Positions 1-22,049 of a DNA stretch of 34,087 nt are shown here, piece after piece. Position 1 is the stretch's first letter, and the number at the start of each line of letters is the position of its first letter. The notes beneath the pieces were generated by a model. That model searched no databases, was not told the DNA's origin, and was given only the letters and a program-made list of their open reading frames with translations. Origin of the DNA: an uncultured Methylibium sp. (GTDB lineage Bacteria; Pseudomonadota; Gammaproteobacteria; Burkholderiales; Burkholderiaceae_C); NCBI RefSeq assembly GCF_902826655.1, contig NZ_CADEFR010000040.1, positions 1-34,087 on the forward strand, read 5' to 3'. A program made the position numbers and the translations under genes.

Positions 1-481
1 AGTTCGGATCCTGGAAGGCGACGCCGCCTGTCTCCCGGATGAGGCGGTTGCCGAACATCAGGCCGTTCTTCTCGTAGCTCAGTTCGCTCGGAAGGGCGCC
101 GACACCCGGGATGACCTGGAAGGCCGTCTCGAACAGGCCCGTGAGCGTGTGCCCGACCGTACTGGTGACACTGCCGAGAAAGGCCACGCCGAACGGGACG
201 TTGGCCACCACCTTCACGGCGGATCCGCCGGTCTTGTCGACGACGCCCACGGTCACCCGCGGCACGATGAGGACGGAGAACACCAGCAGCACCGTGGCCA
301 GCCACTTCCAGCCCTGCAGCTTCTCGGGCGCGAAGGCGTAGGCCACCAGCGCCGCGATGAACCCGCAGAAGGCCACGGCGGCGACCGCCGCCATGTAGTC
401 GCCAGAGCCGTGGATGGTTGCCGCAGCGTTGAAGATGCCGAACAGGCTGTCGGCGTTCTGGTAGGCGTAGATCTCCCACAT
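1..481 (-). CDS. traG: TraG-type conjugal transfer protein, N-terminal part (runs off the window)
   Basis: The minus strand encodes 160 residues starting MWEIYAYQNADSLFGIF and is still open at position 1. The sequence resembles the TraG N-terminal domain of type IV secretion systems of integrative conjugative elements, an inner-membrane mating-pair protein. A hydrophobic stretch (VAFCGFIAALVAYAFAP) and a second one (WLATVLLVFSVLIVPRVTVG) fit membrane segments. The start ATG at 481-479 has a GGAG-like site just upstream. No other transfer gene is visible, because the window ends inside this one. The IS91-like element lies immediately upstream of the start. The first 48 bp of the gene recur at 7626-7673 as part of a long direct repeat. 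The family assignment rests on recognised sequence character, not on a search. Confidence 0.8.
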   Translation of the reverse strand, partial: MWEIYAYQNADSLFGIFNAAATIHGSGDYMAAVAAVAFCGFIAALVAYAFAPEKLQGWKWLATVLLVFSVLIVPRVTVGVVDKTGGSAVKVVANVPFGVAFLGSVTSTVGHTLTGLFETAFQVIPGVGALPSELSYEKNGLMFGNRLIRETGGVAFQDPN

Positions 482-1400
482 GCGTCGCTCCAGGGGGAGC
501 GTGGATCCTGAAGCGATGTGACGATGGCGTCGGCCAGGAACGACCTCAAAAGCACGGGGATATCGGCACTAAGGTGAACGACGGACTCCCGCCGGGGCTG
601 GCCCACCCCAACCGGCTGCACCCGGTGGAGGGCCATCTTCTTGCACCCACAAGCCCGACCGAAGGGCGATGGCGAGTGCAGGGCGATGCTGGGACGGTAG
701 AGGTCCCCATCGAGTCCTCTGCATGCCGTGCACGCCGCCCGCCAGCCCGGTTCCTTACCCGGCTTGGCCAGCCGGCTCCACTACGAACGCCACCGACCGG
801 AGCAGACCACGCTGTACCGCCTGGTCCAGCAGCATGCGGCCAGCTTCATCGCCCACACCGAGGCCAGCACGGACGCCGAGTTGCCGCGGTTCATCAAGGA
901 CGAGTTCGACGCCTTCCTCGAGTGCGGCATCCTGGCGCATGGATTCCTGCGGCTACGCTGCGGCGAGTGCGGCCACGACAAGCTGCTGGCCTTCAGCTGC
1001 AAGCGCCGGGGATTCTGCCCCTCTTGCGGCGCCCGGCGCATGTCGCAGACCGCTGCGCACCTGGTCGACCACGTCATCCCGCACGTGCCGGTGCGGCAAT
1101 GGGTGCTGTCGCTGCCGATCCCGCTGCGCGTGCTGCTGGCCGCGCAGCCGGAACTGGTCACGCCGGTGCTGCAGGTGGTGCAGCGCGTGGTCACGCGACA
1201 TCTGCTGCGGCAGGCGGGGCTCAAGGCTGACGAAGGTCACGGCGGCGCCGTCACGCTGATCCAGCGCTTTGGCTCGGCCGCCAACCTCAACATCCACCTG
1301 CACTGTCTGGTACTGGACGGGGTGTACTGCTGCGACGCCGATGGTTCGCCGGCCTTCATTGAGGCGGATGCGCCCACCGACGACGAATTGCACGCGCTGC
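434..1400. repeat. 967-bp direct repeat, copy 1
   Basis: This segment matches 7626-8592 at a constant offset of 7,192 bp. I found no mismatch in the stretches compared by eye, and the overlapping translations are identical. It contains the first 48 bp of the traG gene, the upstream region, and the first 673 bp of the IS91-like transposase gene. The flanking bases differ at once on both sides (433 against 7625, 1401 against 8593), so the borders are exact. Neither border is an end of the IS element, which points to recombination rather than simple transposition. Confidence 0.95.
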
Positions 1401-2242
1401 TGCAGACCGTCATCGCCCGGCTGATGAAGATGCTCACGCGCCGGGGCGTGCTGGTCGAAGACATGGGCCAGACCTACCTGGCCGAGCCGGATGCCGACGG
1501 CGAGGAGGCGCGCACGCTGCGGCCGCTGCAGGCCGCGGCCATCACCTACCGAATCGCCTTCGGGCCGCGCGCCGGGCAGAAGGTGCTGACCCTGAGAGGC
1601 GCGATGCCGCGCGAGGACTCGGCCCGCCAGCCGCTGTGCGCCGACATCGACGGATTCAGCCTGCACGCCGCGGTGCGGGTCGAAGCCCATGACCGCAAGC
1701 GGCTGGAGCAGCTGTGCCGCTACATCACCCGGCCGGCGCTTTCCGACGAACGGGTGCAGGTCAATGCCGCCGGGCAGGTCGAGCTGAAGCTGAAGACACC
1801 GTGGCGCGACGGCACGACGCATCTGGTCTTGAGCCCGCTGGAGTTCATGCAGCGGCTTGCGGCGCTGGTTCCCCGGCCGCGTCTGCATCTCATCAGGTTC
1901 CACGGCGTGCTGGCGCCCAACGCCAAGCTGCGGTCCCTGGTGGTGCCGCAAGGGCCCGAGGTGGAGGAACGGGCCACCGCAGCCGTTGCCGCCAGCGAAT
2001 GCGTGGTCCAGACCGAGACTAACCCGGACCGGCCGGACCGACCGCACCGAATTGCTTGGGCGCGGCTACTCAAGCGCGTGTTCGACATCGACATGCAGCA
2101 CTGCCCCAACTGCGGCGCCGGGGAGCTCAAGATCATCGCGGCCATCCTGGAGCGACCGGTGATCGAGAAGATCCTGACCCACCTGGGACTGGATCCGCAG
2201 CCGCCGCCCAGAGGCCGAGCGCGCGAGGCGCGGCAAGACTGA
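728..2242 (+). CDS. IS91 family transposase (HUH/Y1 type)
   Basis: This 504-residue protein is the rolling-circle transposase of the IS91/ISCR group. A zinc-binding N-terminal region has Cys78, Cys81, Cys91, Cys97 and Cys100. The HUH metal site is His190-Leu-His192 in NLNIHLHCLVLDGVY. The likely nicking tyrosine is Tyr332 in LCRYITRPALSDERV. A C-terminal CPNCGAGELKI motif is typical of this group. The length is at the usual upper end for the family and the frame is open throughout, so the gene looks functional. The start is GTG at 728 with no strong ribosome-binding site; a nearby alternative start cannot be excluded. The first 673 bp are repeated at 7920-8592. Confidence 0.93.
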   Translation: MHAARQPGSLPGLASRLHYERHRPEQTTLYRLVQQHAASFIAHTEASTDAELPRFIKDEFDAFLECGILAHGFLRLRCGECGHDKLLAFSCKRRGFCPSCGARRMSQTAAHLVDHVIPHVPVRQWVLSLPIPLRVLLAAQPELVTPVLQVVQRVVTRHLLRQAGLKADEGHGGAVTLIQRFGSAANLNIHLHCLVLDGVYCCDADGSPAFIEADAPTDDELHALLQTVIARLMKMLTRRGVLVEDMGQTYLAEPDADGEEARTLRPLQAAAITYRIAFGPRAGQKVLTLRGAMPREDSARQPLCADIDGFSLHAAVRVEAHDRKRLEQLCRYITRPALSDERVQVNAAGQVELKLKTPWRDGTTHLVLSPLEFMQRLAALVPRPRLHLIRFHGVLAPNAKLRSLVVPQGPEVEERATAAVAASECVVQTETNPDRPDRPHRIAWARLLKRVFDIDMQHCPNCGAGELKIIAAILERPVIEKILTHLGLDPQPPPRGRAREARQD

Positions 2243-2511
2243 AGCCGCCTGAGCCGCGTCGACCGTCCCGGACACCGTACACATCACAAAGGGCTGCGCA
2301 GCCTGGCGCCAGTGGCCGGTGGCGCTGCGCCCGCGTGCGGACTGGATGGCGGAAAACACAGGGTCAACCCCGAGATCAAGGCCCAACGAGCGCGAGGCGA
2401 GCCGTCAGGGCGGGCCGAATCCAGACAAGGCAACGGCCCAGGCGCCAGTTCCAAGCCATCCAGGCAGGCATCGGCTGCCCACCCAGGGCTGAGTCGGGCT
2501 TTCCAGGCTTT

Positions 2512-3036
2512 TCACAGACCAGACCGTTTGAAATTCCTATGCGCCTCCTTCATCTCGCCCAGCGCACGCGCGAGGTTGGTCACCATCAGGTAGGGCATGC
2601 TGTCCGCTGCGCCGCTGGCGACCTTGGCGACGGTGGCATTCAGCCCCACGGCGTGGTCCTTCGGCGCGATGACCGCGTGCGCACCGGCGCCGTCGGCCAC
2701 GCGCAGACAGGCTCCGAGGTTGTGCGGATCCGTCACGCCGTCGAGCGCCAGTACGAGCGCTGCGCCTTGCACCGCGTCCAGCACGTCATCGAGCGAATGG
2801 CGCGCCGGCAGCGCGGTCACCCGCGCCACCACGCCTTGGTGGCGCGCACTGCCGGCAAGCTGGCCGAGTCGTTGATCGTCGCTGTCGATCAGCGTCGCGC
2901 CCGCCGCCTGGGCACGCGCGAGCAGGTCGCGCATGCGCGCATCGCGCCGCTGCCGGTCGACATGCACCTCGGTCACGGAGTCCGGAGCGACCTTCAGGCG
3001 CACGGCGACGGCATGAAACCCATAGAGAAGCGCCAT
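2512..3036 (-). pseudogene. rlmB: 3'-truncated 23S rRNA 2'-O-methyltransferase RlmB
   Basis: The reading frame encodes 174 residues, against about 245 for the intact SpoU-family enzyme that methylates G2251 of 23S rRNA. The N-terminal substrate-binding part (MALLYGFHAVAVRLK) and the motif LVLALDGVTDPHNLGACLR, which starts the SPOUT catalytic domain, are present. Homology stops at ALGEMKEA (position 2542). The last nine residues come from the end of the IS91-like element. The missing part holds the C-terminal trefoil-knot and AdoMet-binding motifs, so the product should be inactive. The start ATG at 3036 has an AGGATG site upstream. A functional rlmB is probably elsewhere in the genome; this copy marks where the element joined foreign DNA. 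Confidence 0.85.
2525..2541 (+). other. Candidate oriIS end of the IS91/ISCR-like element
   Basis: The motif CGTTTGAAATTCCTAT (2525-2540) lies about 300 bp downstream of the transposase stop and directly next to truncated rlmB. It closely resembles the origin-end consensus I recall for ISCR elements (GTTTGAACTTCCTATA), with one base difference in the core. Position and sequence together support this as the replication start end. The recalled consensus was not checked against a database. Confidence 0.65.
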
Positions 3037-3088
3037 GCAGCATCCTAGCCGGCTCGGGTAGCCCGGCGGCCAGGCTTGCAGGGCAGAC

Positions 3089-3096
3089 GTCCTACA
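3089..3096 (+). promoter_or_regulatory. GTCCTACA box upstream of the DUF421 gene
   Basis: The 8-mer GTCCTACA ends 63 bp before the start of the DUF421 gene. The same 8-mer, pointing toward the gene, precedes the hemerythrin and catalase genes. It may be a shared promoter or operator element. CTACAC resembles a sigma-S-like -10 box, but no good -35 lies at the right distance. Confidence 0.45.
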
Positions 3097-3159
3097 CCGC
3101 TGCGGCTGCGGCTTTGCTGCAATCGATGCACGCAGCGTGCAGCGGCGTCAGGAGATGTC

Positions 3160-3672
3160 ATGTTCGAACTTTCGATGCCCTGGTGGGAGTTCCCGGTGCG
3201 GGCCGCGCTGATCTACGGCGTGCTGCTGCTGCTGATCCGCGTATCCGGCAAGCGCACGGTGGGGCAGTTCACGCCTTTCGACCTGCTGGTGGTGATGCTG
3301 TTGAGCGAGTCGGTGTCGAACGGGCTGAGCGGGGGAGACGACTCGGTGACGGGCGGCCTGCTGGCCGCAGCCAGCCTGATCCTGCTCAATGTTGTGGTGG
3401 CTGTCGGCACCGCCCGCAGCAGCGGGTTCCAGCAGCTGGTGGAAGGGCGTGCAGTGCTGATCGGCCGCGACGGACAACTCTTCGACGACGTGCTGCGCAA
3501 GTCGAACGTGCCGCGCCTGGACGTGGAACGCGCGCTGCGCGAGGCGGATTGCGACTTGAAGGACATGCAGTGCGCCTTCCTCGAGGCCGATGGAAGGGTG
3601 AGCATCCTGAAGGAGTCCGCGGGTGCCGTCACCGAGGCAAACGGCTTGACGCATGGCGAGCCCAAGCCATAG
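3160..3672 (+). CDS. DUF421 (YetF-like) membrane protein
   Basis: The protein has 170 residues. Three hydrophobic segments (about residues 8-28, 40-60 and 66-86) precede a soluble DUF421 domain with LVEGRAVLIGRDGQLF and LREADCDLKDMQCAFLE, the usual layout of proteobacterial YetF-like proteins. Family members sit in the inner membrane; their biochemical role is not established, though relatives are often found in stress and sporulation contexts. The ATG at 3160 was chosen over an upstream in-frame start because CAGGAGATGTC gives a good ribosome-binding site and the membrane segment begins right after it. It is the first gene of the stress cassette, followed on the same strand by the hemerythrin-like gene 113 bp downstream. 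Confidence 0.85.
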   Translation: MFELSMPWWEFPVRAALIYGVLLLLIRVSGKRTVGQFTPFDLLVVMLLSESVSNGLSGGDDSVTGGLLAAASLILLNVVVAVGTARSSGFQQLVEGRAVLIGRDGQLFDDVLRKSNVPRLDVERALREADCDLKDMQCAFLEADGRVSILKESAGAVTEANGLTHGEPKP

Positions 3673-3677
3673 GTGCG

Positions 3678-3685
3678 GTCCTACA
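3678..3685 (+). promoter_or_regulatory. GTCCTACA box upstream of the hemerythrin-like gene
   Basis: Second exact copy of GTCCTACA, 100 bp before the start at 3786 and just after the stop of the DUF421 gene. The hemerythrin-like gene may therefore have its own promoter. Confidence 0.45.
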
Positions 3686-3785
3686 GGCGCTGTCGCCGCT
3701 GTCCGACGGCAACGGCCTTTGCCAACGCCGAAACTGGCTTTGTCTCCCGCACGGGAGCGCATTCACCCACCTATCGAGGAAACCC

Positions 3786-4316
3786 ATGGCCACCAAATCA
3801 CCCGCCAAGAAAACGACGAGCGCTCGCACGAGCAAGGCCGCTTCGGACGCGAACGACCCCTTCGAGATGCTGAAGTCCGACCATCGTGAGGTCGAGAAGA
3901 TGCACAAGGCTTACGAGAAGCTCGTTGAGAGCGAAGCCGATGCCGAGGAGCGCGGCGAACTCGCGGCGCGCATCTGCGCGGCGCTGACCGTGCATGCGAC
4001 GGTCGAGGAGGAAGTCTTCTACCCGCCGGTGCGCGAAGCCATCGACGACGACGACATCATGGATCACGCCGACGTGGAACACGAAAGCGCGAAGGACCTG
4101 ATCGCGCAGATCGAGTCGATGGGCCCGGACGACAGCCACTACGACGCCAAGGTCACCGTGTTGTGCGAGTACGTCGCCCACCACGTGAAGGAAGAGGAAG
4201 AAGAGATGTTCCCGAAGGCGCGCAAGGCCAAGGGCATCGACTTCGCCGCGTTGGCGCAGGAGATGGCGGCGCGCAAGGCCGAGCTGGAAGCGGAGTACGC
4301 CGAGATGGCGTCCTGA
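3786..4316 (+). CDS. Hemerythrin-like (HHE domain) protein
   Basis: The protein has 176 residues. A basic, Ala/Ser/Thr-rich N-terminal tail (about residues 1-24) precedes a four-helix HHE domain. The non-heme diiron ligands of the family can be seen: DHREVEKMH, VHATVEEEVFYP, DVEHESAKDL and VAHHVKEEEEEMFP. Such proteins bind oxygen or sense oxygen or nitric oxide, and DUF-type HHE proteins are frequent in stress islands; the specific role here is inferred. The start at 3786 follows GAGGAAACCC, a good ribosome-binding site. A clear terminator follows the stop, so transcription ends before the convergent catalase gene. The lysine-rich tail could contact nucleic acid, but that is speculation. Confidence 0.9.
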   Translation: MATKSPAKKTTSARTSKAASDANDPFEMLKSDHREVEKMHKAYEKLVESEADAEERGELAARICAALTVHATVEEEVFYPPVREAIDDDDIMDHADVEHESAKDLIAQIESMGPDDSHYDAKVTVLCEYVAHHVKEEEEEMFPKARKAKGIDFAALAQEMAARKAELEAEYAEMAS

Positions 4317-4336
4317 TCGCCTACCCAAGAATGGAA

Positions 4337-4365
4337 ATGCCGCCGGTGTCCCGGCGGCATTTTTC
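4337..4365 (+). terminator. Rho-independent terminator after the hemerythrin-like gene
   Basis: A perfect 10-bp GC-rich stem, ATGCCGCCGG and CCGGCGGCAT, has a TGTC loop and is followed by a T run. It starts 20 bp after the hemerythrin stop. On the opposite strand the stem is followed by a weaker T tract, so it may also slow catalase transcription. Confidence 0.9.
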
Positions 4366-4385
4366 GTTCGGCGTCGAAGCGGCTC

Positions 4386-6758
4386 TTACACGCGCGGTGG
4401 ATCCGTTTCGCGTTCGAAGCGACGCGGGGCACCGATGGCCTTCACGAACCGTTCGATGCCGCCGTCGAGCTGAACTGCATCGACCACCACCAGCGCAGGG
4501 TCATCGCCCTGCGGGATGCCAGCCTCGCCGAGCACCTGCGCGCCCGTACCCAATGCCAGCATCGGCTTGCAGTGGCGATACACCGTACGCACGCTGTCCA
4601 TCAGGTTCGCATCCCCGACCAGCGCCTGCGCAGCCTTCTCGCCATCGGGCAGCACGATGGCGTCGAACAGGAAACCCGGTTCATTCTCGAACGACGCTTC
4701 GGCGTCGATCGACTGCCCGTCCGCCGCCGGGATGGGGCCGACGTGCGGCCCGACGAAACGCGGCACGGCCCCTTGCTGCAGCAACGCGTCGCGCACCGCA
4801 AGCAGCGAGCGGGCATGCGCGCCCGGCGCAACCATCACGGCGACCTTGCGCGCCTCGATCGAGCCATCACCCGGCCGCGCCATGAGCGACAGTGCGGGGG
4901 AGCTGGACACCTCCGGCCGTGCCGGCGTGTCGATGGCGCGCGGCATCGGTTGCGGCAGCGGGTCGATGCCGAGTTTGGCCGCGACCTGGGCGGCCAGTTC
5001 CTCCGAAGCGTTGCGCAACGAGGCAACCATGCGCTCACGGATCGCCGGCACGGTGACCTTGCTCAGCTCGAAGCGGAAGGCGGCGGCAATGTGGGCCTTC
5101 TCCGCCGGCGTCTGGCTCTCATAGAACAGCGTCGCCTGCGTGTAGTGGTCGGCGAACTTCTCCGGCTTGGCCCGTACTTTGACCTGGGACTCGCTGGCGT
5201 TCAAGCGCGCCGCCACCGACACGAAGCCGTGTGCCGCGCCGGCCTGGAACGGACAGCCGCCGGCCAGCGAGTTGGGCTCGTACGACACGCGGCCGCGATG
5301 GATCGCCTGGCGGTGCATGCCATCGCGTTGGTTGTTGTGCACCTGGGCGATCGGCGCATTGATCGGCAACTCATGGAAGTTCGGCCCGCCGAGCCGGGAC
5401 AGCTGCGTGTCGAAGTAGGAGTGAATCCGCCCGGCCAGCAGCGGATCGTTCGAGAAGTCGATGCCGGGCACCACGTTCGCCGTGCAGAACGCCACCTGCT
5501 CGGTCTCCGCAAAGAAGTTGTCCGGGTTGCGGTTGAGCACCATGCGCCCGATCGGCCGCACCGGCACCATCTCTTCGGGAATCAGCTTGGTCGCGTCCAG
5601 GACGTCGAAGCTGAAAGCCTCGGCTTGCTCCTCGGTGAACACTTGCACCCCGAGCTCCCACTGCGGATAGGCGCCGTTCTCGATCGCTTCCCAGAGGTCG
5701 CGTCGATGGAAGTCCGGGTCCGCCCCGGAGATCTTCACCGCCTCGTCCCAGACGAGCGAGTGTGTGCCGGCCTTCGGGTTCCAGTGGAACTTGACGAAGA
5801 CGGACGCCCCTTCGGCGTTGACGAAGCGGTAGGTGTGAACGCCGAAACCCTGCATCGTGCGCAAGCTGCGCGGAATGGCGCGGTCCGACATCACCCACAT
5901 CAGCATGTGGGTGGATTCGGGCATCAGCGAAACGAAGTCCCAGAACGTGTCGTGCGCACTCGCGGCCTGGGGCATGGCGTGATGGGGCTCGGGCTTCACG
6001 GCGTGCACCAGGTCGGGGAACTTCATCGCGTCCTGGATGAAGAAGACCGGCATGTTGTTGCCGACCAAGTCCCAGTTGCCTTCGTCGGTGTAGAACTTGA
6101 CCGCAAAACCGCGCACGTCGCGCGCGGTGTCCTTCGAGCCACGTTCACCCGCGACGGTGGAAAAGCGGACGAACACGGGCGTGATCTTCCCGGCCTCCTT
6201 GAACGGTGCCGCGCGCGTCAGCTCGGCCAGCGATTCATAGGCCTCGAAGAAGCCGTGTGCCGCCGAACCGCGCGCATGCACGATGCGCTCGGGGATGCGT
6301 TCGTGATCGAAGTGGGTGAGCTTCTCGCGCAGGATGAAGTCTTCCAGCAGCACCGGCCCGCGCAAGCCGTCCTTCAGGGAGTTCTGGTTGTCCGCGATCA
6401 ACACACCCTGGTTGGTGGTGAGCGGGCGCCCCGAGCCGTCAGCGCGTACACGGTCGAGTGTCTCGATCGTCGCGTTCAGGCCTTCCACCGCCATGCTGCC
6501 GGTCTTGTCGCTGCCATTGGCTTCGCTCAGCGTGCTCGCCGTGGGCAGCCGCGAGGGCGCATCGGCGGTGTCGCCCTCCTCAGGGTTCAGCCCCGCCTGC
6601 AGCCCATGTTCGCCCGCCTTGGCGCTGTTGAACGGCATCCGTGCGGCGAGCTGCTCCGTCTGGGCGCGTTGCTGTGCACCCGCATCGTTCGCCGCAGGCA
6701 CCGTAGCGCTGCCGCTGTCGGACACCACGGGGGTTTTCTCTTTCGACTTCTTGGCCAC
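4386..6758 (-). CDS. katE: Large-subunit monofunctional catalase (HPII type)
   Basis: The 790-residue protein converts hydrogen peroxide to water and oxygen with a heme cofactor. Residues about 1-110 form a low-complexity N-terminal arm. The catalase core has the distal His161 in [12 protein letters not shown], Asn234 in [11 protein letters not shown] and the proximal heme ligand Tyr448 in RIHSYFDTQ. Residues from about 630 to the end form the class I glutamine-amidotransferase/DJ-1-like domain that marks large-subunit clade II catalases; [11 protein letters not shown] and [12 protein letters not shown] are visible. The length agrees with the family. The start is GTG at 6758, supported by AGGAGG four bases upstream. 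It converges on the hemerythrin gene and diverges from the broken flavodoxin gene. A GTCCTACA box lies 83 bp upstream. Confidence 0.96.
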
Positions 6759-6841
6759 AGAGCCTCCTGAAATACAAGCTGTTGAGGGGAAATGGAGCGC
6801 GCCTTCAGCGGCTCATTCGACACCCCGCCGGCTCGTTGCCG

Positions 6842-6849
6842 TGTAGGAC
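6842..6849 (-). promoter_or_regulatory. GTCCTACA box upstream of katE
   Basis: Third exact GTCCTACA, on the minus strand, 83 bp before the katE start. All three intact genes of the cassette thus share the box in the same orientation relative to transcription. Confidence 0.45.
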
Positions 6850-6907
6850 AAGAACTCGGCTGCTTGTAGGCGATTTCTCGCAGCGAAGCACCAGCACGGC
6901 TGGGGTC

Positions 6908-6933
6908 ATGTGGAGCGCGCTTGCGCTCCACAT
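6908..6933. repeat. Perfect 11-bp inverted repeat (hairpin)
   Basis: ATGTGGAGCGC and its exact reverse complement are separated by GCTT. No T run follows, so it is not a typical terminator. It sits between katE and the flavodoxin remnant, at the edge of the readable flavodoxin frame. Confidence 0.7.
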
Positions 6934-7377
6934 CGGCATGCTGGCAAGCTCGCGCCGTGCCTGCCATCAAACCCACGCTGCGGCTCGGCCAAGCGGACAA
7001 ACCTGCCCGTCACGCGGGACGCGTTTCGACGCCGTTACCAGCAGCGCTTCTTCGATCCCGTCTATGCCGCCGAGCAGCCGGCCATCGACCGCCTGGAAGC
7101 GCTGGCCTGGCAGGCCTATCAGGACGGCCGCAAGGCGCCGCGCACCGCGCCGGCCGGCAGCGGCTACGCCGACCCTGGCTACGCGCTGTCGAACGAGTGG
7201 CGCACCACCGCCGAGGCGCTGCAACAGGCCCAGGCGCACTGGGCCGCGCCCGGCACGCCGTCGCGGGTGCTCGTTGTCTGCGCCAGCCCGCGCAACGACG
7301 GCAGCTGCCCGGGCGAGATGTCGAAGACGTGGCGCCTCGCCCAACTCGCGCTCGGGGTGATCGAAGACGAGGCCTGA
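6910..7377 (+). pseudogene. 3'-truncated flavodoxin-family NAD(P)H-dependent oxidoreductase
   Basis: The frame holds about 125 residues of recognisable family sequence. It begins around TNLPVTRDAFRRRYQQRFFDP, passes YQDGRKAPRTAPAGSGYADPGY, and reaches the flavin-binding start VLVVCASPRNDGSCPGEMSKTWRLA. The intact proteins continue for well over 100 residues with the rest of the flavodoxin fold; here the homology ends near 7350 and a stop follows at 7377. The apparent GTG start at 6910 lies inside a hairpin and is probably not native. The gene is divergent from katE and is the last recognisable cargo piece before the second repeat copy. The product should not be functional. Confidence 0.7.
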
Positions 7378-7625
7378 ATCTGCTGGCGAGCGTCGCTTGG
7401 TTCGGGCGCAGGTTGTCCCGGTGGAGAAACTGGAAGAGGAGCCTGACGAACCGCGCCCGTCGCTCTTCGATATGTAGCGTCAATGTCCGGCGTGACGCGC
7501 GGGTCGCCACCACAACCGCGCGCTCCGCCCGCGCAGATGCTTCCCTTGCCGACCGCACCGCGTTCTCTGAGCGGCTTGCCGTGGCCAGGGAGAGAGGCGA
7601 TTCGATTTCAATCGACATTGCGCAG
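7378..7625. other. Unassigned remnant between flavodoxin fragment and repeat copy 2
   Basis: No complete gene is seen in this 248-bp stretch. In the plus frame ending with TAG at 7475-7477 there is a plausible protein C-terminus (RRLVRAQVVPVEKL, then an acidic stretch ending RPSLFDM). The end resembles C-terminal tails with an SLFD-type motif, but I do not recognise the protein. A minus-strand frame through the stretch is also open but uninformative. It probably joins two unrelated pieces of DNA. Confidence 0.4.
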
Positions 7626-7673
7626 GATGCCGAACAGGCTGTCGGCGTTCTGGTAGGCGTAGATCTCCCACAT
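7608..7673 (-). pseudogene. First 16 codons of traG, duplicated
   Basis: The frame repeats MWEIYAYQNADSLFGI of the gene at 481, then leaves homology at 7625 and stops five codons later. The start and its ribosome-binding region are identical to the intact copy, so a 21-residue peptide could be made; it has no expected function. It shows that repeat copy 2 derives from the traG-IS91 junction. Confidence 0.85.
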
Positions 7674-8592
7674 GCGTCGCTCCAGGGGGAGCGTGGATCC
7701 TGAAGCGATGTGACGATGGCGTCGGCCAGGAACGACCTCAAAAGCACGGGGATATCGGCACTAAGGTGAACGACGGACTCCCGCCGGGGCTGGCCCACCC
7801 CAACCGGCTGCACCCGGTGGAGGGCCATCTTCTTGCACCCACAAGCCCGACCGAAGGGCGATGGCGAGTGCAGGGCGATGCTGGGACGGTAGAGGTCCCC
7901 ATCGAGTCCTCTGCATGCCGTGCACGCCGCCCGCCAGCCCGGTTCCTTACCCGGCTTGGCCAGCCGGCTCCACTACGAACGCCACCGACCGGAGCAGACC
8001 ACGCTGTACCGCCTGGTCCAGCAGCATGCGGCCAGCTTCATCGCCCACACCGAGGCCAGCACGGACGCCGAGTTGCCGCGGTTCATCAAGGACGAGTTCG
8101 ACGCCTTCCTCGAGTGCGGCATCCTGGCGCATGGATTCCTGCGGCTACGCTGCGGCGAGTGCGGCCACGACAAGCTGCTGGCCTTCAGCTGCAAGCGCCG
8201 GGGATTCTGCCCCTCTTGCGGCGCCCGGCGCATGTCGCAGACCGCTGCGCACCTGGTCGACCACGTCATCCCGCACGTGCCGGTGCGGCAATGGGTGCTG
8301 TCGCTGCCGATCCCGCTGCGCGTGCTGCTGGCCGCGCAGCCGGAACTGGTCACGCCGGTGCTGCAGGTGGTGCAGCGCGTGGTCACGCGACATCTGCTGC
8401 GGCAGGCGGGGCTCAAGGCTGACGAAGGTCACGGCGGCGCCGTCACGCTGATCCAGCGCTTTGGCTCGGCCGCCAACCTCAACATCCACCTGCACTGTCT
8501 GGTACTGGACGGGGTGTACTGCTGCGACGCCGATGGTTCGCCGGCCTTCATTGAGGCGGATGCGCCCACCGACGACGAATTGCACGCGCTGC
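7626..8592. repeat. 967-bp direct repeat, copy 2
   Basis: Identical by eye to 434-1400 and in the same orientation. It carries the traG start, the left part of the IS91-like element and the first 673 bp of the transposase gene. The left neighbour is the 7378-7625 remnant and the right neighbour is a truncated hydrolase gene. Lack of divergence between copies suggests a recent event or ongoing gene conversion. Confidence 0.95.
7920..8592 (+). pseudogene. 3'-truncated IS91 family transposase
   Basis: The first 224 codons match the intact transposase at 728. The zinc-binding cysteines and the HLH metal site are kept, but the nicking tyrosine region (Tyr332 of the full protein) and the C-terminus are lost. 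After 8592 the frame runs into hydrolase DNA in the wrong frame, giving a chimeric reading frame open to 9299 that has no homology after the junction. The origin end is also absent, so this copy cannot start transposition by itself, though its left end could still serve as a termination site. Confidence 0.9.
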
Positions 8593-9174
8593 ACGATTGC
8601 CGTCAGCCGCCCGGGCTATGGGCGCAGCGCCGGGCACGATGGAGACCACAGCCCATGTGCCGCAGCGTCCGAACTGCGAGCGCACCTGCGCCGATCCGGA
8701 TTCGCCCCACCGTACGTACTGGTCGGTCACTCACTCGGCGGGCTCTACCAGTACGCCTATGCGAAGCTCTATCCCAACGACGTCGCGGGCATCGTGCTGC
8801 TGGAGCCGACCCACCCGCAGCATTGGCCGCGCATGCAGCAGGAGGCTCCGGCCATGGCGGTGGTCGTGCGAACGGCACGGCTTGCTGCCTTCTCCCCGAC
8901 GATGCGGCGGGAGTTCGACGACCAGCAGCGCTGCCTGGACAGCCTTGTCTCGTTGCCATCGCCGACAGTGCCGACGCGCGTGCTCGTGCGCGGGCGTTTC
9001 GCCCCGCCCGAAGCCGGCGCGTTCGAGAACATGTCGCGAGACCTATGGCGCGACTGGCCGGCGCTGCTGCACACGAGGGGTGTCGAGTCCGTGGAGGGCG
9101 CCGGCCACTACATCCAGAAGGACAAACCAGCGGCCGTTGCCGACACCATCCGGGCGGTAGCGACGCCCATGTAA
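8593..9174 (+). pseudogene. 5'-truncated alpha/beta hydrolase
   Basis: From 8593 the frame reads TIAVSRPGYGRSAGHDG and then YVLVGHSLGGLYQYAYAKLYP. This is the strand-helix region and nucleophile elbow (GHSLGG, catalytic serine) of alpha/beta hydrolases. GAGHYIQKDKP near the end carries the likely catalytic histidine. The N-terminal part, probably 60-100 residues with the oxyanion-hole strand and the start codon, was removed at the junction with the IS fragment. The IS reading frame is not in phase with it, and the only in-frame starts upstream lie in antisense-like IS sequence. The substrate cannot be told from what remains. Confidence 0.8.
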
Positions 9175-9374
9175 TAGGGTTCACGAAGCGCGGAGAGCTG
9201 ACACCATGTTCTCTTTCGCCGTGCATTTGGGTACCCTGGACCGGGCATTCATCAATGCCCGCTCCTGGCCGCATGCGGACGCTCGCCAGCTGGCTCTGAA
9301 GTGTTCAGTCGTGGTTTATCCACCGAGCGTGTAGTCCGCTGACCTTCGACCGCTCAGGCGGTAGCCTCCACCCC
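9175..9374. other. Intergenic region at the edge of the accessory block
   Basis: No gene is seen. A small hairpin, GGGCATT and AATGCCC with a CATC loop, lies at 9243-9260 without a T run. Base composition shifts to very high GC just to the right, so the boundary with resident chromosome is probably here. No attachment-site repeat was found. Confidence 0.4.
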
Positions 9375-10598
9375 GTGGACTCCCTCACCACCGCCGCCGC
9401 CCGCGCCCTCGCCACCGGCGACGCCGTTGGCGCCCTGAAGCACGTGGCCCTGCGCGACGATCCGCCCGCGCTGGCGCTGCGTGGCATCGCGATGGCCCAG
9501 CTCGGCGAGCTGGTCCGTGCGCGCGATCTGCTGCGCCGCGCCGCGCGCGGCTTCGGTCGGCACGAGGCCGTGGCGCGTGCGCGTTGCGTGGTGGCGGAGG
9601 CCGAGGTGGCGCTGGCCTTGCGCGACCTGGGCGGCTCGCCGCGCGGGCTGGCGGCGGCGATCGCCACGCTGGACGCGCGCGGTGATCGTGCCAACGCGCT
9701 GCACGCGCGGCTGATCGCGCTGCGCCGCTCGCTGCTGATCGGCCGGCTGGCCGATGCGCAGGCGGCGCTGGCCGACCTGGACGGGGCTGCGCTGCCGCCG
9801 GCGCTGCACGCCGTGGCTGCGCTGGCGCAGGCCGAGCTGGCCTTGCGTTCGCTGCGCACCGCGCCCGCGCGCGCCGCGCTGGCCCAGGCGCAGCAGGCCG
9901 CGCTGCAGTCGCGCGTGCCCGCGCTCGCGGCCGAGGTGGCCGAGGCGCGCGCCGCACTCGACCGGCCGGCCGCGCGCCGCATCGGCGGTGGGCACGAGCA
10001 GCCGCTGCGGCTGGACGAGGTCGAGGCGCTCCAGGCCTCGGGCGCGCTGGTGGTCGATGCCTGTCGCCGTGGCGTGAGGGTCGGCGATGCGTGGATCGCG
10101 CTGGCGCGCCGGCCCATCCTCTTCACGCTGGCGCAGGCGCTGGCCGAGGCCTGGCCGGGCGATGCCGATCGCAACGCGCTGATCGCGCGCGCCTTCCGCA
10201 CGCGCCGGCCCGACGAGACGCACCGCGCGCGCCTTCGCGTGGAAGTGGGCCGCCTGCGCGCGCTGCTGGCGCCGCTGGCGCGCGTGGAGGCCACGGCGCC
10301 GGGCTTCGCCTTGCGGCCGATCGGTGAGGCGCCGGTGGTGGTGGTGTTGCTGCCGCCGATCGATGGCGACGCGGCCTCGCTGCTGGCGCTGCTGGCCGAC
10401 GGCGCGGCGTGGTCGACCTCGGCACTCGCGCTGGCGCTGGGCGAGAGCCAGCGCACGGTGCAGCGCGCGCTGGCCGACCTGCAGGCCGCGGGCCGCGTGC
10501 GATCGGTCGGGCGCGCGCGGGCGCAGCGCTGGCTGGCGCCGCCGCTGGCGGGATTCACGACGATCTTGTTACTCCCCGCTGCGCTGCCGCTCACATAG
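9375..10598 (+). CDS. Transcriptional regulator with two DNA-binding-like domains
   Basis: The protein has 407 residues. Residues about 1-205 are Ala/Leu/Arg-rich repeated helices that look like a TPR or similar helical solenoid. Residues about 230-316 resemble an OmpR-type winged helix (RRGVRVGDAWIALARRPILF, then RLRVEVGRLRALL). Residues about 335-397 form a second winged-helix unit (STSALALALGESQRTVQRALADLQAAGRVRSVG). The start is GTG at 9375 with no strong ribosome-binding site; an alternative nearby start is possible. It is followed after 46 bp by a beta-propeller gene on the same strand, and the pair may be one transcription unit. Targets are unknown. I am fairly sure it is a DNA-binding protein, less sure of the domain limits. 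Confidence 0.75.
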   Translation: MDSLTTAAARALATGDAVGALKHVALRDDPPALALRGIAMAQLGELVRARDLLRRAARGFGRHEAVARARCVVAEAEVALALRDLGGSPRGLAAAIATLDARGDRANALHARLIALRRSLLIGRLADAQAALADLDGAALPPALHAVAALAQAELALRSLRTAPARAALAQAQQAALQSRVPALAAEVAEARAALDRPAARRIGGGHEQPLRLDEVEALQASGALVVDACRRGVRVGDAWIALARRPILFTLAQALAEAWPGDADRNALIARAFRTRRPDETHRARLRVEVGRLRALLAPLARVEATAPGFALRPIGEAPVVVVLLPPIDGDAASLLALLADGAAWSTSALALALGESQRTVQRALADLQAAGRVRSVGRARAQRWLAPPLAGFTTILLLPAALPLT

Positions 10599-10644
10599 AT
10601 TGCCTCCATCGGCGCCGCACCGTGCGCCGCAAAAGGAAACCAGG

Positions 10645-11295
10645 ATGAAGCGCAACACCACCCCCGCCGAGATCGTGCGCGAGTACGGTCCCTTCGACGG
10701 CGTCACGCAGATCGGCGGCGTCACGCACGACGGCCAGCGCGTCTGGGCCGCCGCCGGCGCCCAGCTGATCGCCATCGACCCGGCCAGCGGCGAGGTCGCG
10801 GCCACGCTGCCGCGCGCCGCCGATGCCGGCACCGCCTTCGATGGCAAGCACCTCTACCAGATCGCCGAGTCGCGCATCGACAAGATCGACCCCGCCACCG
10901 GCGAGGTGCTGGCCACCATCCCCGCTCCGGGCCAGGGCCGCGACTCGGGCCTGGCCTGGGCCGAGGGCAGCCTGTGGGTCGGCCAGTACCGCGACCGCAA
11001 GATCCTGCAGATCGACCCGCAGACCGGCGCGGTGCTGCGCAGCATCGAGTCCAACCGCTACGTCACCGGCGTCACCTGGGTCGACGGCGAGCTGTGGCAC
11101 GGCACCTGGGAGGGCGAGGAGAGCGAGCTGCGCCGCATCGACCCGCAGACCGGCGCCGTGCTGCAGCAGCTGCAGATGCCGCAGGGCGTCTTCGTCAGCG
11201 GGCTCGAGTCGGATGGAGCCGGGCTCTTCTACTGCGGCGGCGCCACCAGCGGCAAGGTCCGCGCGGTTCGGCGGCCGGCGCGCGCCGCGGCCTGA
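10645..11295 (+). CDS. Glutamine-cyclotransferase-like beta-propeller protein
   Basis: The protein has 216 residues made of repeated blades: IDPASGEVAATL, IDPATGEVLATI, IDPQTGAVLRSI and IDPQTGAVLQQL follow each other at about 45-residue spacing. This pattern matches YncE-like and glutaminyl-peptide cyclotransferase-like propellers (Pfam Glu_cyclase_2 group). No signal peptide is seen, so it is probably cytoplasmic. Enzyme activity is not shown by the sequence; it could be a binding protein. The ATG at 10645 follows AAAAGGAAACCAGG. It lies 46 bp after the two-HTH regulator and converges on the STAND regulator with only 13 bp between stops. Confidence 0.75.
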   Translation: MKRNTTPAEIVREYGPFDGVTQIGGVTHDGQRVWAAAGAQLIAIDPASGEVAATLPRAADAGTAFDGKHLYQIAESRIDKIDPATGEVLATIPAPGQGRDSGLAWAEGSLWVGQYRDRKILQIDPQTGAVLRSIESNRYVTGVTWVDGELWHGTWEGEESELRRIDPQTGAVLQQLQMPQGVFVSGLESDGAGLFYCGGATSGKVRAVRRPARAAA

Positions 11296-11308
11296 AGCCG
11301 GGCCGCCC

Positions 11309-13711
11309 TCAGCCTTCGCGGGCCAGCCACCGCTCCAGCTCGCGCATCACCTCGGAGAAGTCGGCGGCGCGGCCCGCCGCTTCGGCCGCGTCGAAGGCGG
11401 CGTCGCCCAGCGCCTGGCGCGACGCCGCCAGCAGCGGCTCGACATGCTCCATCTCCCCCGGCTCGTGCCGGTAGCCCCAGGCCAGCAGCTGCCGGTCGGC
11501 GGCGCCCCAGAAGCGCGCCGCGGTCGCGTGCTCGCCCCGGCGCGATGCCAGGCCGACCGCGGCTTCCAGCAGGTCGGCGCCGACCTTCTCGTCGCGCGCC
11601 AGCGGCAGGCATTCGGCGGCGTGCTCGCGGGCCCGCTGCAGCTCGCCGCGCGCCACCAGCACGCGGATCAGGTTGTCCAGCAGGACCACCTGGCCGACCC
11701 GGCCGACGTGCCCGCGCGCCCACGCCAGCGCCTCCACGTAGCAGCGCTCGGCGGCCTCGAGCTGCCCGGTGCGATGCCGCACCGAGCCGATGTTGTTGAG
11801 CAGCGTGAACAGCAGGACGCCGTCGTCCAGCTGCCGGGCCAGGGCCAGCGCTTCTTCCTTGGCCTGCAGCGAGGCCTCGTCGCGGCCCAGGCTGCCCAGC
11901 GCCGAGCCGACCGCATTGAGCGCCCAGGCCAGCGGCTGCGGCGCGCCGATCTGCCGGGCGGCGGCCAGCGCCTGCTGCGCATAGGTCAGCGCTTCTTCGT
12001 AGCGGCCGCGGAACTCGCTCATGCGGGTGAGCGCGAGCAACGCGCCCTGGCGCGCCGGCGTGGCGGCGGCCGCGCGGTCGTGGTCCAGCACGGCGCGCGT
12101 CAGGCGGTAGCCCGACTCCACGCTGTTCCAGCCCCAGTAGTAGCCGGTGGCGGCGGCCAGCCGCAGGCCGGGCTGCGGGTCGAGCGCGCCTTCGCAGCAC
12201 CAGCCCAGCGCGACGACCAGGTTCTCGTGCTCCTGCTTGAAGCGGCCCATCCACGCGTCCTGCCCGGGCCCGCGCACCTGCGGCTCGGCCTCTTCGGCCA
12301 TCGCGATGAAGTGCGCCACGTGCCGGCCGCGCGCGGCGTCGGCTTCGCCCAGCTCGGCCAGGCGCTCCAGCGCGTACTGGCGCACGGTCTCGAGCATGCG
12401 GTAGCGCGGGGCGCCGCCGGCCGCGTCGCGGTCGACGGTGAGCAGCGACTTGTCGTGCAGCGCGGTCAGCAGCGCCAGCGCCTCGTAGTCGTCGGCGGTC
12501 TGCGCGACGTCGGCCGCCGCCTGCAGCGTCCAGCCGCCGGCGAACACCGCCACCTGGCGCAGCATGCGCTGCTCGGCCGCCGTCAGCTGCTCGTAGCTCC
12601 ACTGCATGGCCGCGCGCAGGGTCTGGTGGCGCGGCACGGCGCGGTGGCCGCCGGTCAGCAGCCGGAAGCGGTCGTCCAGGCGCTGGGCGATCTCGGCGAT
12701 CGACAGCATCGTGACCCGCGCGGCCGCCAGCTCCAGCGCGAGCGCGATGCCGTCGAGGCGCCGGCAGATCTCGGCCAGCGGCGCGGCGCCGGCGGCGTCG
12801 ACCTCGAAGTCGGGCCGCAGCAGCCGGGCGCGGTCGACGAACACGCGCGCCGACTCGGTGGCCAGCACCGAGCCCAGGTCGTCGGTGGTCGGCAGCGACA
12901 GCGAGCGCACCGGATAGAGCTGCTCGCCGCTGACGCCCAGGGCCTCGCGGCTGGTGGCCAGGATCGTGAGGCGACCCGGCCCGGCCAGCAGCGCCTCGGC
13001 CAGCGCGGCCGCGCCTTCGATCACGTGCTCGCAGTTGTCCAGCACCAGCAGCAGGTGGCGCGCGGCCAGGTGTTCGCGCAGGCGTGTCAGCAGCGGCGCG
13101 TCGCCTTCGTCGGGCAGACCCCACACGGCGGCGCAGGCGGCAGCCACGCGCCCGGCGTGCTGCAGCGGCGCAAGGTCGACGAAGCACACGCCGTCGGCGT
13201 AGGCCGCGGCCTGCTGCTGCGCGAAGCGCAGCGCCAGGCGCGTCTTGCCGCAGCCGCCGATGCCGGTGAGCGTGAGCAGGCGCGTCGCCGGCACCAGGCG
13301 CGCCAGGTCCGCCAGCGCCGCCTCGCGGCCGATGAAGCGGGTGTGCCGATCCGGCAGGGTGGGGCGCGGGCCCGGCGGCGGCGCGTCCGGCGTCGGGGCC
13401 GGCGCCTGGCGCCGCGCGGTGAGGCGGTAGCCGTAGCCGGGCAGGGTGGCGATGGCCTGCGCGCCGAGCAGCTTGCGCAGACTGCCGACCTGGGTGGCGA
13501 TGTTGTGCTCTTCCACCACCAGGCCGGGCCAGACGAGGTCCAGCAGCTCCTGCTTGGTGACCAGGCGCTCGTGGCGCTGCGCCAGCACCAGCAGCAGGTC
13601 GAAGGCACGGCTGCCCAGCGACACCGGCTGCCCGCGCACGCGCAGCTGGCGCTCGGCGGCGTGCAGCTCGAAGTCGTCGAAGCGCAGCGGGTCGTCGGTG
13701 GCCGTGGGCAA
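11309..13711 (-). CDS. STAND-type transcriptional regulator (winged helix, NTPase, TPR)
   Basis: The protein has 800 residues. Residues about 8-100 form an OmpR/PhoB-type winged helix (RFDDFELHAAERQLRV to LPGYGYRL). The ATPase core has a Walker A motif at 150-157 (GIGGCGKT) and Walker B at about 221-225 (LLVLD). The C-terminal half, about 490-790, is a helical TPR-like sensor region. Family members are signal-responsive regulators in which the TPR part senses a ligand and ATP controls DNA binding. The start is TTG at 13711, with GGGAGA upstream; no in-frame ATG fits before the DNA-binding domain. It diverges from the diiron protein gene, and three CTTGAA-type repeats in the shared region are candidate binding sites. 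Confidence 0.88.
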   Translation of the reverse strand: MPTATDDPLRFDDFELHAAERQLRVRGQPVSLGSRAFDLLLVLAQRHERLVTKQELLDLVWPGLVVEEHNIATQVGSLRKLLGAQAIATLPGYGYRLTARRQAPAPTPDAPPPGPRPTLPDRHTRFIGREAALADLARLVPATRLLTLTGIGGCGKTRLALRFAQQQAAAYADGVCFVDLAPLQHAGRVAAACAAVWGLPDEGDAPLLTRLREHLAARHLLLVLDNCEHVIEGAAALAEALLAGPGRLTILATSREALGVSGEQLYPVRSLSLPTTDDLGSVLATESARVFVDRARLLRPDFEVDAAGAAPLAEICRRLDGIALALELAAARVTMLSIAEIAQRLDDRFRLLTGGHRAVPRHQTLRAAMQWSYEQLTAAEQRMLRQVAVFAGGWTLQAAADVAQTADDYEALALLTALHDKSLLTVDRDAAGGAPRYRMLETVRQYALERLAELGEADAARGRHVAHFIAMAEEAEPQVRGPGQDAWMGRFKQEHENLVVALGWCCEGALDPQPGLRLAAATGYYWGWNSVESGYRLTRAVLDHDRAAAATPARQGALLALTRMSEFRGRYEEALTYAQQALAAARQIGAPQPLAWALNAVGSALGSLGRDEASLQAKEEALALARQLDDGVLLFTLLNNIGSVRHRTGQLEAAERCYVEALAWARGHVGRVGQVVLLDNLIRVLVARGELQRAREHAAECLPLARDEKVGADLLEAAVGLASRRGEHATAARFWGAADRQLLAWGYRHEPGEMEHVEPLLAASRQALGDAAFDAAEAAGRAADFSEVMRELERWLAREG

Positions 13712-13754
13712 GGGCGGTCTCCCGTTCGGGCAGTCAGGCGGTCGGTCGACGCCG

Positions 13755-13781
13755 TTTGAAAACGCTTGAACCTGCCTTGAA
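13755..13781. promoter_or_regulatory. Triple TTGAA direct repeat, candidate operator
   Basis: TTTGAA (13755-13760), CTTGAA (13765-13770) and CTTGAA (13776-13781) start 10 and 11 bp apart, one helical turn each. OmpR-type winged helices commonly bind such tandem direct repeats. The site lies between the STAND regulator and the diiron protein gene, 44 bp from the former start. Confidence 0.5.
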
Positions 13782-13875
13782 GACGCCGCGCCGGCCGCTT
13801 GCGCAGAGTGTGCAACAGGCGTCGACCGATGCCGGCACCGCCTGCCCTTCCTCCCACATTCAAGGAGCCACCGCC

Positions 13876-14823
13876 ATGTCGCACGCCACCTCGCACTCGA
13901 CCGATTCCGCCCGCTACGCCAAGTGCGTCGAGGTCTCCAAGCGCATCCGCTGGGACACCGACCGCGACGTGATCCGCGGCCGCGCCTTCGACTTCGGCCG
14001 CAAGTTCCTGCCCGACGGGCTGTCGATGGTGGCGCGGCTGCCGTTCCTGAGCCCCGACGAGCAGCGGCTGTTCTCGCAGGTGCAGGGCCGCACCTACGCC
14101 AACATGTTCGCGCTGGTCGAGCGCTTCATCGGCGCCAAGGTGCTGGAACTGAGCCGCGGCCACTGGCTCGGCGACCAGGTCGCGCTCGAGGCGCTGGTGC
14201 GCCTGACCGACGAGGAGCTCAAGCACCAGGAGATGTTCCGCCGCCTCGAGACGATGATGGCGCCCGGCATGCCCGCCGGCTACCGCTTCCTGCCGCAGCC
14301 CAACGACGTGGCGCAGGCGGTGCTGGCCGCGTCGAGCTGGGCGGTGCTGGCGCTCGTCACCGACATCGAGCTGTTCTCGCAGGCGCACTACCGCAGCAGC
14401 ATCGAGCCCGAGCAGCAGATCGATCCGCTGTGGAAGGACGTGTTCCTGTTCCACTGGAAGGAGGAGTCGCAGCACGCGATCCTCGACGAGATCGAGTGGC
14501 TCAGCGAGAACGCCCGGCTCGACGCGGCGCAGCGCGATCAGGCCGTGAGCGAGCTGATCGGCCTGGTCGCGGCGGTCGACGGCATCGTGCAGATGCAGGC
14601 CCGGGCCGACGCCGACTACTTTGCGCAGGCGGCCGGCCGCTCCTTCGATGCGGCGCAGGCGGCCGCCCTGCACGCCACGATGCTGCGGGCCTACCGCTGG
14701 CAGTACGTCGTGAGCGGGGTGCAGGACCCGCGCTACGGCGAGCTGCTGGGCTCGATGCTGAATGCCGAGCAGGGCGCGCGCATCCAGGCGGCGCTGGCGC
14801 CGATCGTCGGCGCGGTGCACTGA
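13876..14823 (+). CDS. Ferritin-like diiron protein of unknown function
   Basis: The protein has 315 residues, mostly helical. Candidate iron-binding motifs are EELKHQEMFRR and EESQHAILDEIEW (two E-x2-H pairs), with further acidic residues in LVERFIGAKVLEL and VTDIELF. This is the pattern of ferritin-like diiron oxidases or oxygenases such as the AurF group, but I cannot assign a substrate. No signal peptide is seen. The ATG at 13876 follows AAGGAG at the right distance, preferred over the upstream in-frame start at 13756. The divergent STAND regulator with direct repeats between the genes suggests it is the regulated target. Confidence 0.65.
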   Translation: MSHATSHSTDSARYAKCVEVSKRIRWDTDRDVIRGRAFDFGRKFLPDGLSMVARLPFLSPDEQRLFSQVQGRTYANMFALVERFIGAKVLELSRGHWLGDQVALEALVRLTDEELKHQEMFRRLETMMAPGMPAGYRFLPQPNDVAQAVLAASSWAVLALVTDIELFSQAHYRSSIEPEQQIDPLWKDVFLFHWKEESQHAILDEIEWLSENARLDAAQRDQAVSELIGLVAAVDGIVQMQARADADYFAQAAGRSFDAAQAAALHATMLRAYRWQYVVSGVQDPRYGELLGSMLNAEQGARIQAALAPIVGAVH

Positions 14824-14860
14824 GGCCGCACGCACCGACCCGAGCGACCCGAGCGAGCCG

Positions 14861-15481
14861 TCAGGACGACAGCATCCGCCCCAGCTCGGCAAAGCTGTGC
14901 GCGATCTCCGGCACCTCGATGGGCCGGCCGAGCTGGCGCTGGATCTGCGTGCGCGACAGCACGCCGCGCACGCGCGGGCCGGCGGCGCCGTCGGGCTGGT
15001 CGACCACCAGCAGGTGGTTGCGGCCGTGGTGCACCAGCGTCTCGACCACGTGCGCGACGCGCGCCTGGCGCAGGTCGGCCAGCGCGATGGCGTCGATATC
15101 GGCCAGCGGCGTCATCACGTCGGCGGCGGTCAGCTCGTCGTGGCGCAGGCCGCGCTGCTGCACGCGCTGCATCGGGCGGTCGCCGTAGAGGTCGGTGGTG
15201 GTGATCAGGCCCTCGACGACGGGGCTGTCGCCGACGACGAAGAGCATGCGCACGCCGGCCTCGATCATCTGGCGCTCGACGTCGCGCAGGCGCGTGCGCG
15301 GCGCGGTGATGACGGCCTTGACCAGGGTGAGGTCGGTCATCACGTCGAGCGCCGGCGAGTCGGGCGTGACCGGTCCGATGGGGCCGAGGCCGGCCTGGGC
15401 CAGCGCCGCGCCGGCGCCGAGCAGGCGCGTCGGCAGCAGGCCGGCGTTCGAGGAGCGAGACGACGCGAGCGCCATGTCCAT
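14861..15481 (-). CDS. CBS domain protein
   Basis: The protein has 206 residues with two CBS motifs in tandem: about 47-100 (VMTDLTLVKAVITAPRTRL to GLITTTDLYG) and about 120-190 (VMTPLADIDAIALADL to GVLSRTQIQRQL). Paired CBS motifs bind adenosyl nucleotides and regulate partner proteins. No other domain is present, so it is a stand-alone regulator. The ATG at 15481 has AAGGAGG upstream, and MDM gives two possible starts six bases apart. No obvious partner lies next to it; the GNAT gene upstream is on the same strand 107 bp away. Confidence 0.9.
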   Translation of the reverse strand: MDMALASSRSSNAGLLPTRLLGAGAALAQAGLGPIGPVTPDSPALDVMTDLTLVKAVITAPRTRLRDVERQMIEAGVRMLFVVGDSPVVEGLITTTDLYGDRPMQRVQQRGLRHDELTAADVMTPLADIDAIALADLRQARVAHVVETLVHHGRNHLLVVDQPDGAAGPRVRGVLSRTQIQRQLGRPIEVPEIAHSFAELGRMLSS

Positions 15482-15588
15482 GCAAGCCTCCTTGCCGCGC
15501 GAGGCCCACAGACAGCGTGGGGCGGCGGCAGGCGAACCTTACTCCTGCGCCGGCGCGGAGTCACCCTCCGGGCCCAGGGGGCCGAGGG

Positions 15589-16122: not shown

Positions 16123-16156
16123 GGCCGCAGCTGGAAGCATGGGCGATGCCAGGGGG

Positions 16157-22028: not shown

Positions 22029-22049
22029 GGCGGGCGGGGGGCGACGCTG

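Follow-up and report, generated by a model that had tools for sequence, protein, structure and literature searches.

A traG-carrying ISCR-like element beside a catalase–hemerythrin–DUF421 cassette in an uncultured Methylibium: evidence consistent with cargo capture and circle exchange

We analyzed a 34,087-nucleotide stretch of DNA (hereafter, the window) that makes up the whole of one draft contig (NZ_CADEFR010000040.1, here C40; assembly GCF_902826655.1, 4.22 Mb in 142 contigs) from an uncultured Methylibium sp. Near its left end, a complete element of the insertion sequence common region (ISCR) type, joined to a piece of the conjugation gene traG, adjoins a block of cargo genes that includes a catalase gene (katE), a hemerythrin HHE gene and a DUF421 gene, and a second, incomplete copy of the element follows the cargo. 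The window is an instance of ISCR-type cargo capture that lies outside the named clade and is unusual in its traG companion and stress cargo. The explanation that we favor, with a probability of about 0.7, is that ISCR captured the cargo and that circles consisting of a traG piece, ISCR and cargo are exchanged by homologous recombination. Three things are established: the anatomy of the window, the presence of a nearly identical element in 11 other genomes, and the recurrence of a plan of element, cargo and second segment in those of them whose sequence can be read past the cargo.

The preliminary description of this DNA, made by eye, proposed that an identical direct repeat with borders unlike insertion sequence (IS) ends brackets the cassette. 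Alignment showed that positions 434-1400 and 7626-8592 match at 967/967 bases on the same strand, with no mismatches and an offset of 7,192. At this offset there is no other exact run of at least 20 bp; divergence is immediate on both sides and the flanks are unrelated. Searching the 142 contigs gave two full copies and, beyond these, partial matches of only 49 bp and 79 bp. As proposed, neither border is an IS end: the repeat starts within traG and stops at codon 224 of the transposase gene (tnp, 728-2242). In it, 63 bp of conjugation-region DNA, for the most part from the beginning of traG, precede the left part of an ISCR/IS91-like element. Copy 1 (434..1400, + strand), containing the traG start, the left part of ISCR and the first 224 tnp codons, belongs to a complete element. 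Copy 2 (7626..8592, + strand) contains the 63 bp and the element's first 904 bp, but neither the right end nor the 3' portion of tnp, and is directly preceded by scrambled conjugation-region DNA. Since copy 2 is incomplete, the arrangement is not a compound (composite) IS unit with two complete IS copies.

The complete element occupies 497..2543 (+ strand), with its right, oriIS-side end at 2543/2544. Its left end (~497) was set by comparison with element-free conjugation sites in Piscinibacter defluvii SH-1 (G5), Caldimonas caldifontis (G6), Leptothrix sp. C29 (G9) and a Rubrivivax bin (G8), which track the window to 496 and then diverge; a single base (492) differs in G5, G6 and G9. The HUH transposase (rcr/tnp, 728..2242, + strand, 504 aa) has an open frame throughout and contains Y2_Tnp and Zn_Tnp_IS91 domains. 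It scored 487.4 bits against NF052416 (ISCR_clade_Ia; cut-off 925) over model positions 17-487 of 509, and is a full-length transposase of the IS91/ISCR type, related to but outside the named NCBIfam clade Ia. An HLH motif lies at 190-192 and Tyr 332, which we take to be the catalytic residue, within RYITRP. The right end, ...TATGCGC, is common to the window and 12 loci (...TATGCG in L012, which stops there at a contig end). Flanks are visible in 11 of the 12: those of L015 and L016 are the same, that of L090 resembles the window for ~12 further bases, and the rest differ. On this comparison, the oriIS-side end is constant.

To place the element in other genomes, genome contigs were scanned with the transposase; of the 131 relatives that this yielded the best 80 were kept, giving 79 loci. 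The element was found at ≥99% DNA identity in 11 other genomes (G1 to G11), partially in two cases (L045, L046) that stop at contig ends. This comparison omits L024 (a second locus in the same Aquabacterium bin, G7), L073 (96% over 734 bp) and L090 (a 493-bp 3' fragment on a Piscinibacter plasmid). Since the full 967 bp is 100% identical in 7/11 of these genomes, with one mismatch and/or partial coverage in the other 4, the identity of the two window copies is put down to recent spread of the element and is no sign of local duplication. Among 399 same-order genomes, our own included, no other genome exceeded 88% to the 967 bp over a piece longer than 100 bp.

Past the cargo, a second segment of traG 5' DNA or ISCR was present in 8/8 assessable genomes (G1, G4, G5, G6, G7, G8, G9 and Variovorax sp. 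JS1663, G11); the sequences of the other 3/11 (G2, G3, G10) end at contig ends. The full plan, including an element-free far site, is readable in four (G5, G6, G8, G9). In G5 and G6 traG, element and cargo follow one another and the traG start then recurs, over 370 bp (window-equivalent 127-496) in G5 and 320 bp in G6, where both copies have a common 50-bp gap. The same plan in G9 spans two contigs, joined by cargo similarity to G5, and the second copy in G8 measures 17 bp (480-496). Beyond the second copy come TraH, TraF and TraN in G5 and DNA 95.8-98.9% similar in G6, G8 and G9. The second segment begins near 256 in G1 (96% over 103 bp, to the contig end) and at 317 in G4, where it also stops at a contig end, so that neither sequence reaches the far junction; traG up to the start codon is present on another G4 contig, which fits in front of the 317 segment. 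The completeness of traG was verified in G5 alone, where the gene encodes 924 aa (L110).

Two further genomes show other arrangements. In G11 a transposon, accompanied by a 5-bp duplication (GCGAA), divides the element, whose two halves flank one 4.7-kb cargo. Since halves of a single interrupted ISCR flank a single cargo block, the G11 unit is circular or tandem. The interrupting transposon itself, which presumably has Tn3-like ends, is seen at L025 1-474 and 7190-7272, and the contig breaks inside it. In G7, 8.9 kb lie between two copies of the element, another cargo block lies to the left of the ISCR that carries traG from 127, and the far end of a possible read-through is occupied by other sequence, IS-like by reading. 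The direct ISCR copies (99.9% over 1,519 bp) in L121 of this bin enclose, by reading, RND-type efflux genes.

The cargo of G5, G6, G7 and G9 resembles the transmissible locus of stress tolerance (tLST), also called the locus of heat resistance. Cardiolipin synthase and FtsH each scored above the NCBIfam cut-off, and PsiE-, HtpX- and DegP-like proteins were recognized by profile, one of the matching proteins being from G6 and the others from G5; the corresponding DNA matches at 96.7% in G9 and 99.96% in G7. A ClpG/ClpK-like AAA+ open reading frame (ORF) was recognized by reading rather than search. The tLST-like island lies between traG and traH, beside ISCR, in both G5 (L110:15193-20000 and L111:1-6164) and G6 (L112-L113). 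Also by reading, L110:8590-9942 is a tyrosine-integrase-like ORF beside an isocitrate-dehydrogenase-like gene (L110:7220-8479), a region that is a possible end of the conjugative element.

Left ends vary, in window-equivalent positions, among 127, ~256, 317, 434 and 480, and two lie inside the element (519, 966). Past the junction of cargo to traG at 127, G5 continues into the element-free site and G7 into ISCR. Here G7 equals the right copy of G5 at 21/21 variable columns (161-425), while the left copy of G5 differs at six. This allele pattern fits homologous recombination between traG starts.

We propose the following as the most likely sequence of events. An ISCR carrying a traG piece would come to adjoin cargo, pickup occurring next to the element's right (oriIS-side) end. 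Circles of traG piece, ISCR and cargo would then arise when direct copies recombine or when rolling-circle replication runs past the left end. Homology would let the circles recombine with the traG of conjugative elements or with further copies. Both the circles and their direction are suggested by comparison of the sequences. The window would be a chromosomal array of this type, in which recombination between the 967-bp copies would release a circle and delete katE, HHE and DUF421. The circle size of 7,192 bp given in the preliminary description agrees with the copy offset, and such a circle would indeed hold a complete transposase gene and the element's right end, both provided by the intact copy 1. 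Mobility of the cassette in this strain is plausible. Exchange of the circle type is likewise plausible, relatives sharing the plan of element, cargo and second traG/ISCR segment, but its occurrence here is unsupported. The further proposal that stress tolerance is a reversible, transferable trait found no support: traG is truncated, and general ORF profile scans revealed no integrase among the annotated ORFs of 1-8592. The conjugation gene said to lie nearby is present, as a truncated 5' fragment. More tentatively, the traG start could act as a homology arm through which circles shuttle heat/stress islands and catalase clusters between chromosomal arrays and element-free conjugative elements. 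As part of this possibility, and with odds similarly well below even, the traG site might serve as an exchangeable cargo bay of a conjugative-element family in an environmental Burkholderiales ISCR lineage.

Several observations weigh against capture followed by circle exchange. Neither circles nor junction reads nor transposition were seen, and both window copies are known from one draft contig. G9 has the junction of cargo to 127 but other traG alleles in its right copy, a difference that fits what is expected of a different recipient. A conversion tract is needed in G5 if the common allele is the incoming one, since both copies share GGG at 161-179, and the right segment of G8 has just 17 bp in common with the traG side, too little for ordinary homologous recombination. 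By eye, no target-like tetranucleotide (GAAC, CAAG and similar) is common to the left-end boundaries; GAAC occurs 4 bp within the junction at 127 and 6 bp within that at 434, and GTTC 1 bp inside window position 1. Four end stretches (terIS, oriIS) folded no more stably than shuffled sequences (z -0.13 to 0.91). Finally, the scrambled debris before copy 2 calls for at least one unrelated rearrangement.

Among the alternatives, the one with the most substantial chance, roughly one in four, is an assembly ambiguity, in which a one-copy chromosome joined to the hydrolase gene on the right flank and a 7,192-bp circle (or cargo in another organism) were opened into one contig. Over window positions 1-9300, the k-mers of the contig and those of a chromosome without 1401-8592 plus the circle are identical at k = 55, 127, 251, 967 and 968; therefore, sequence of up to 968 bp cannot separate an integrated from an excised cassette. 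The overlap of exactly 55 bp between contigs C3 and C40 is typical of k-mer assemblers, and near-identity of the element across many bacteria would aid such an ambiguity. A 16S gene was not found in the genome, as in many metagenome bins, a weak point considering that the same search missed it in 5/14 control genomes. However, longer-range information may have been available to the assembler, which carried the contig across the repeat, and second segments past the cargo occur also in genomes not labelled as metagenome-assembled (on one contig in G5 and G6, on two in G9). This alternative is in any case compatible with ISCR capture rather than exclusive of it. One-ended rolling-circle transposition alone, each left end being a failed terIS termination inside traG, would account for a constant right end with variable left ends, and IS801 recruits 290-1431 nt of upstream DNA in this way (PMC3189936). 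Against it, the left ends are without a common tetranucleotide, two of them lie inside the element, and simple insertion does not give traG 5' segments running into element-free sites, as in G5, G6, G8 and G9; we regard it as improbable.

A slightly smaller likelihood falls to local duplication, that is, a tandem or segmental copy of one element, later broken and without mobility. The identity of the window copies and the rearranged conjugation-region DNA flanking copy 2 would suit it, but the sequence conservation among the other genomes makes local copying unnecessary for that identity, and the plan recurs elsewhere with different cargo and left ends. Site-specific integration, with the repeats as integrase attachment sites, is very improbable. 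Direct repeats do flank cargo, and a related CR2-sul2 unit moves by an integrase (PMC9376610); however, the window repeat is 967 bp long and extends into tnp, and the profile scans of 1-8592 offered no integrase to act on it. We rejected this candidate since the repeats of different lineages neither start at the same point nor have the same length (370, 320 and 17 bp, the remainder being cut by contig ends).

ISCR cargo capture with circle exchange may also be set beside known systems. The window element shares with ISCR1, ISCR2 and ISCR8 its transposase family, a constant right end, varied adjacent cargo and a conjugative-region setting. It differs by its transposase, which is only 36% identical to an ISPps1-family transposase (ISPps1 is presumably ISCR8) and scores below the clade Ia cut-off, by its stress and other cargo and by carrying traG sequence. 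It is widely assumed that ISCR elements move by a rolling circle and form circles, but as of 2022 neither had been demonstrated for the CR transposase (PMC9376610). While ISCR1, ISCR2 and ISCR8 have a LexA-type box upstream of tnp (PMC13393415), none was found within one mismatch upstream of the window tnp; the three matches in the window all lie elsewhere, versus 8.4 expected. A perfect LexA-box-like palindrome (CTGT-N8-ACAG, 28743-28758) stands just before an ORF at 28766. With IS801/IS91 one-ended transposition, the window shares carriage of upstream DNA, a constant right end and fragments that make recombination repeats, whereas left ends of the window type are without a tetranucleotide signature; most natural IS801 fragments were judged rearrangements by the authors of one study (PMC3189936). 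In E. coli, recombination between incomplete IS91 copies flanking the hly operon removes the intervening DNA, with RecA helping but not required (PMC3214074). That deletion was demonstrated by experiment, while for the window it is deduced.

In part of one description, tLST is flanked by IS5, IS3 and Tn7 elements, and IS91/ISCR is not mentioned there (PMC8290217). In G5, G6, G7 and G9 tLST-like genes adjoin this ISCR element or the traG segment that goes with it, whereas the window cargo (katE, HHE, DUF421) is without the tLST genes named in the same excerpt (PMC8290217), and no gene of the tLST dna-hsp20-clpG core was found among the window cargo ORFs scanned by profile. Among the titles and abstract openings listed by literature searches, some of whose lists covered only part of the papers matched, none evidently described this arrangement. 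Eleven further genomes carry the element in nearly identical form with differing cargo, and they offer a natural series for testing the ISCR model; it includes one cargo junction readable in both the element-bearing and the element-free state. The series also links capture by ISCR to genes for stress tolerance instead of antibiotic resistance.

Profile searches agreed with the preliminary description on the katE, HHE and DUF421 content of the cassette. From the left, the cargo begins with rlmB (2512..3036, - strand), its 3' end truncated by the element's right end, covering RlmB profile positions 4-167 of 244; the host's other rlmB, on contig C14, covers 4-243. It is followed by the DUF421 (YetF C-terminal domain) gene (3160..3672, + strand; PF04239, 3.9e-8; ATG at 3160) and a gene for a PA2171-like hemerythrin HHE protein (3786..4316, + strand; PF01814, 3.9e-15; NF053874, 76 bits, cut-off 190). 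The katE gene (4386..6758, - strand) encodes an HPII-type large-subunit catalase of 790 aa (PRK11249, 1018.7 bits, cut-off 1102), in which a profile search recognized catalase, catalase-rel and C-terminal domains. The N-terminal part of a flavodoxin-family-like gene (6910..7377, + strand), cut at ~7366, had no Pfam match and gave a 67.4% DNA match to a gene annotated as flavodoxin family protein (H43). Since the host has one further catalase-domain protein (C3, 94.8 bits), loss of katE need not abolish catalase activity.

The truncated rlmB was up to 79% identical at the DNA level to genes of 11 relatives versus 74% to the host's own, and G+C was 66.9% in the cargo, 65.0-68.5% in segments of 1-9370 and 73.2% from 9371 on. 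Judged by these identities and the G+C contrast, the cargo is foreign. The exact donor was not found, the best matches to the truncated rlmB being 79% among the 11 relatives and 75% among the 399 same-order genomes, own included. A native block of katE, HHE and DUF421 was not found either, no such neighbours appearing in the gene tables, themselves incomplete, of three plasmid catalase regions. Contig C79 of G8 carries katE-like (79%) and HHE-like (68%) stretches ~2.5 kb apart.

To the left of the element, a traG 5' fragment of a type-F conjugation region (1..481, - strand, 160 codons; TraG_N, 7.3e-29) has its start codon at 481. The last 55 bp of contig C3 equal the first 55 bp of C40, and C3 upstream of them is not conjugation-region DNA; if this adjacency is true, traG is a 481-bp 5' fragment. 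The rearranged debris before copy 2 (7366..7631) consists of 7366-7508 on the + strand and 7504-7631 on the - strand, 92.9-98.4% identical to L011, L015 and L045. Elsewhere in the host, contig C2 (172000-191999, L118) holds a related conjugation region whose traG start is 84% identical, without ISCR there, and which is a possible recipient.

To the right of copy 2, an alpha/beta hydrolase gene without its N-terminus (8593..9174, + strand; PF12697, 29-216 of 217) is joined to the truncated tnp. An empty chromosomal site was not seen: the end of C3 and the right side of the window were not adjacent among the matches listed for 60 genomes, nor in four regions compared. Rfam and tRNA scans of the window gave no matches. 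Host chromosome extends over 9371..34087 (G+C as above), with similarity to two same-genus genomes from 9371/9373 to ~11277, as far as the comparison was carried. At the window's right end (31582-34061) lie dnaJ- and dnaK-like genes, by reading, in an ordinary chromosomal setting.

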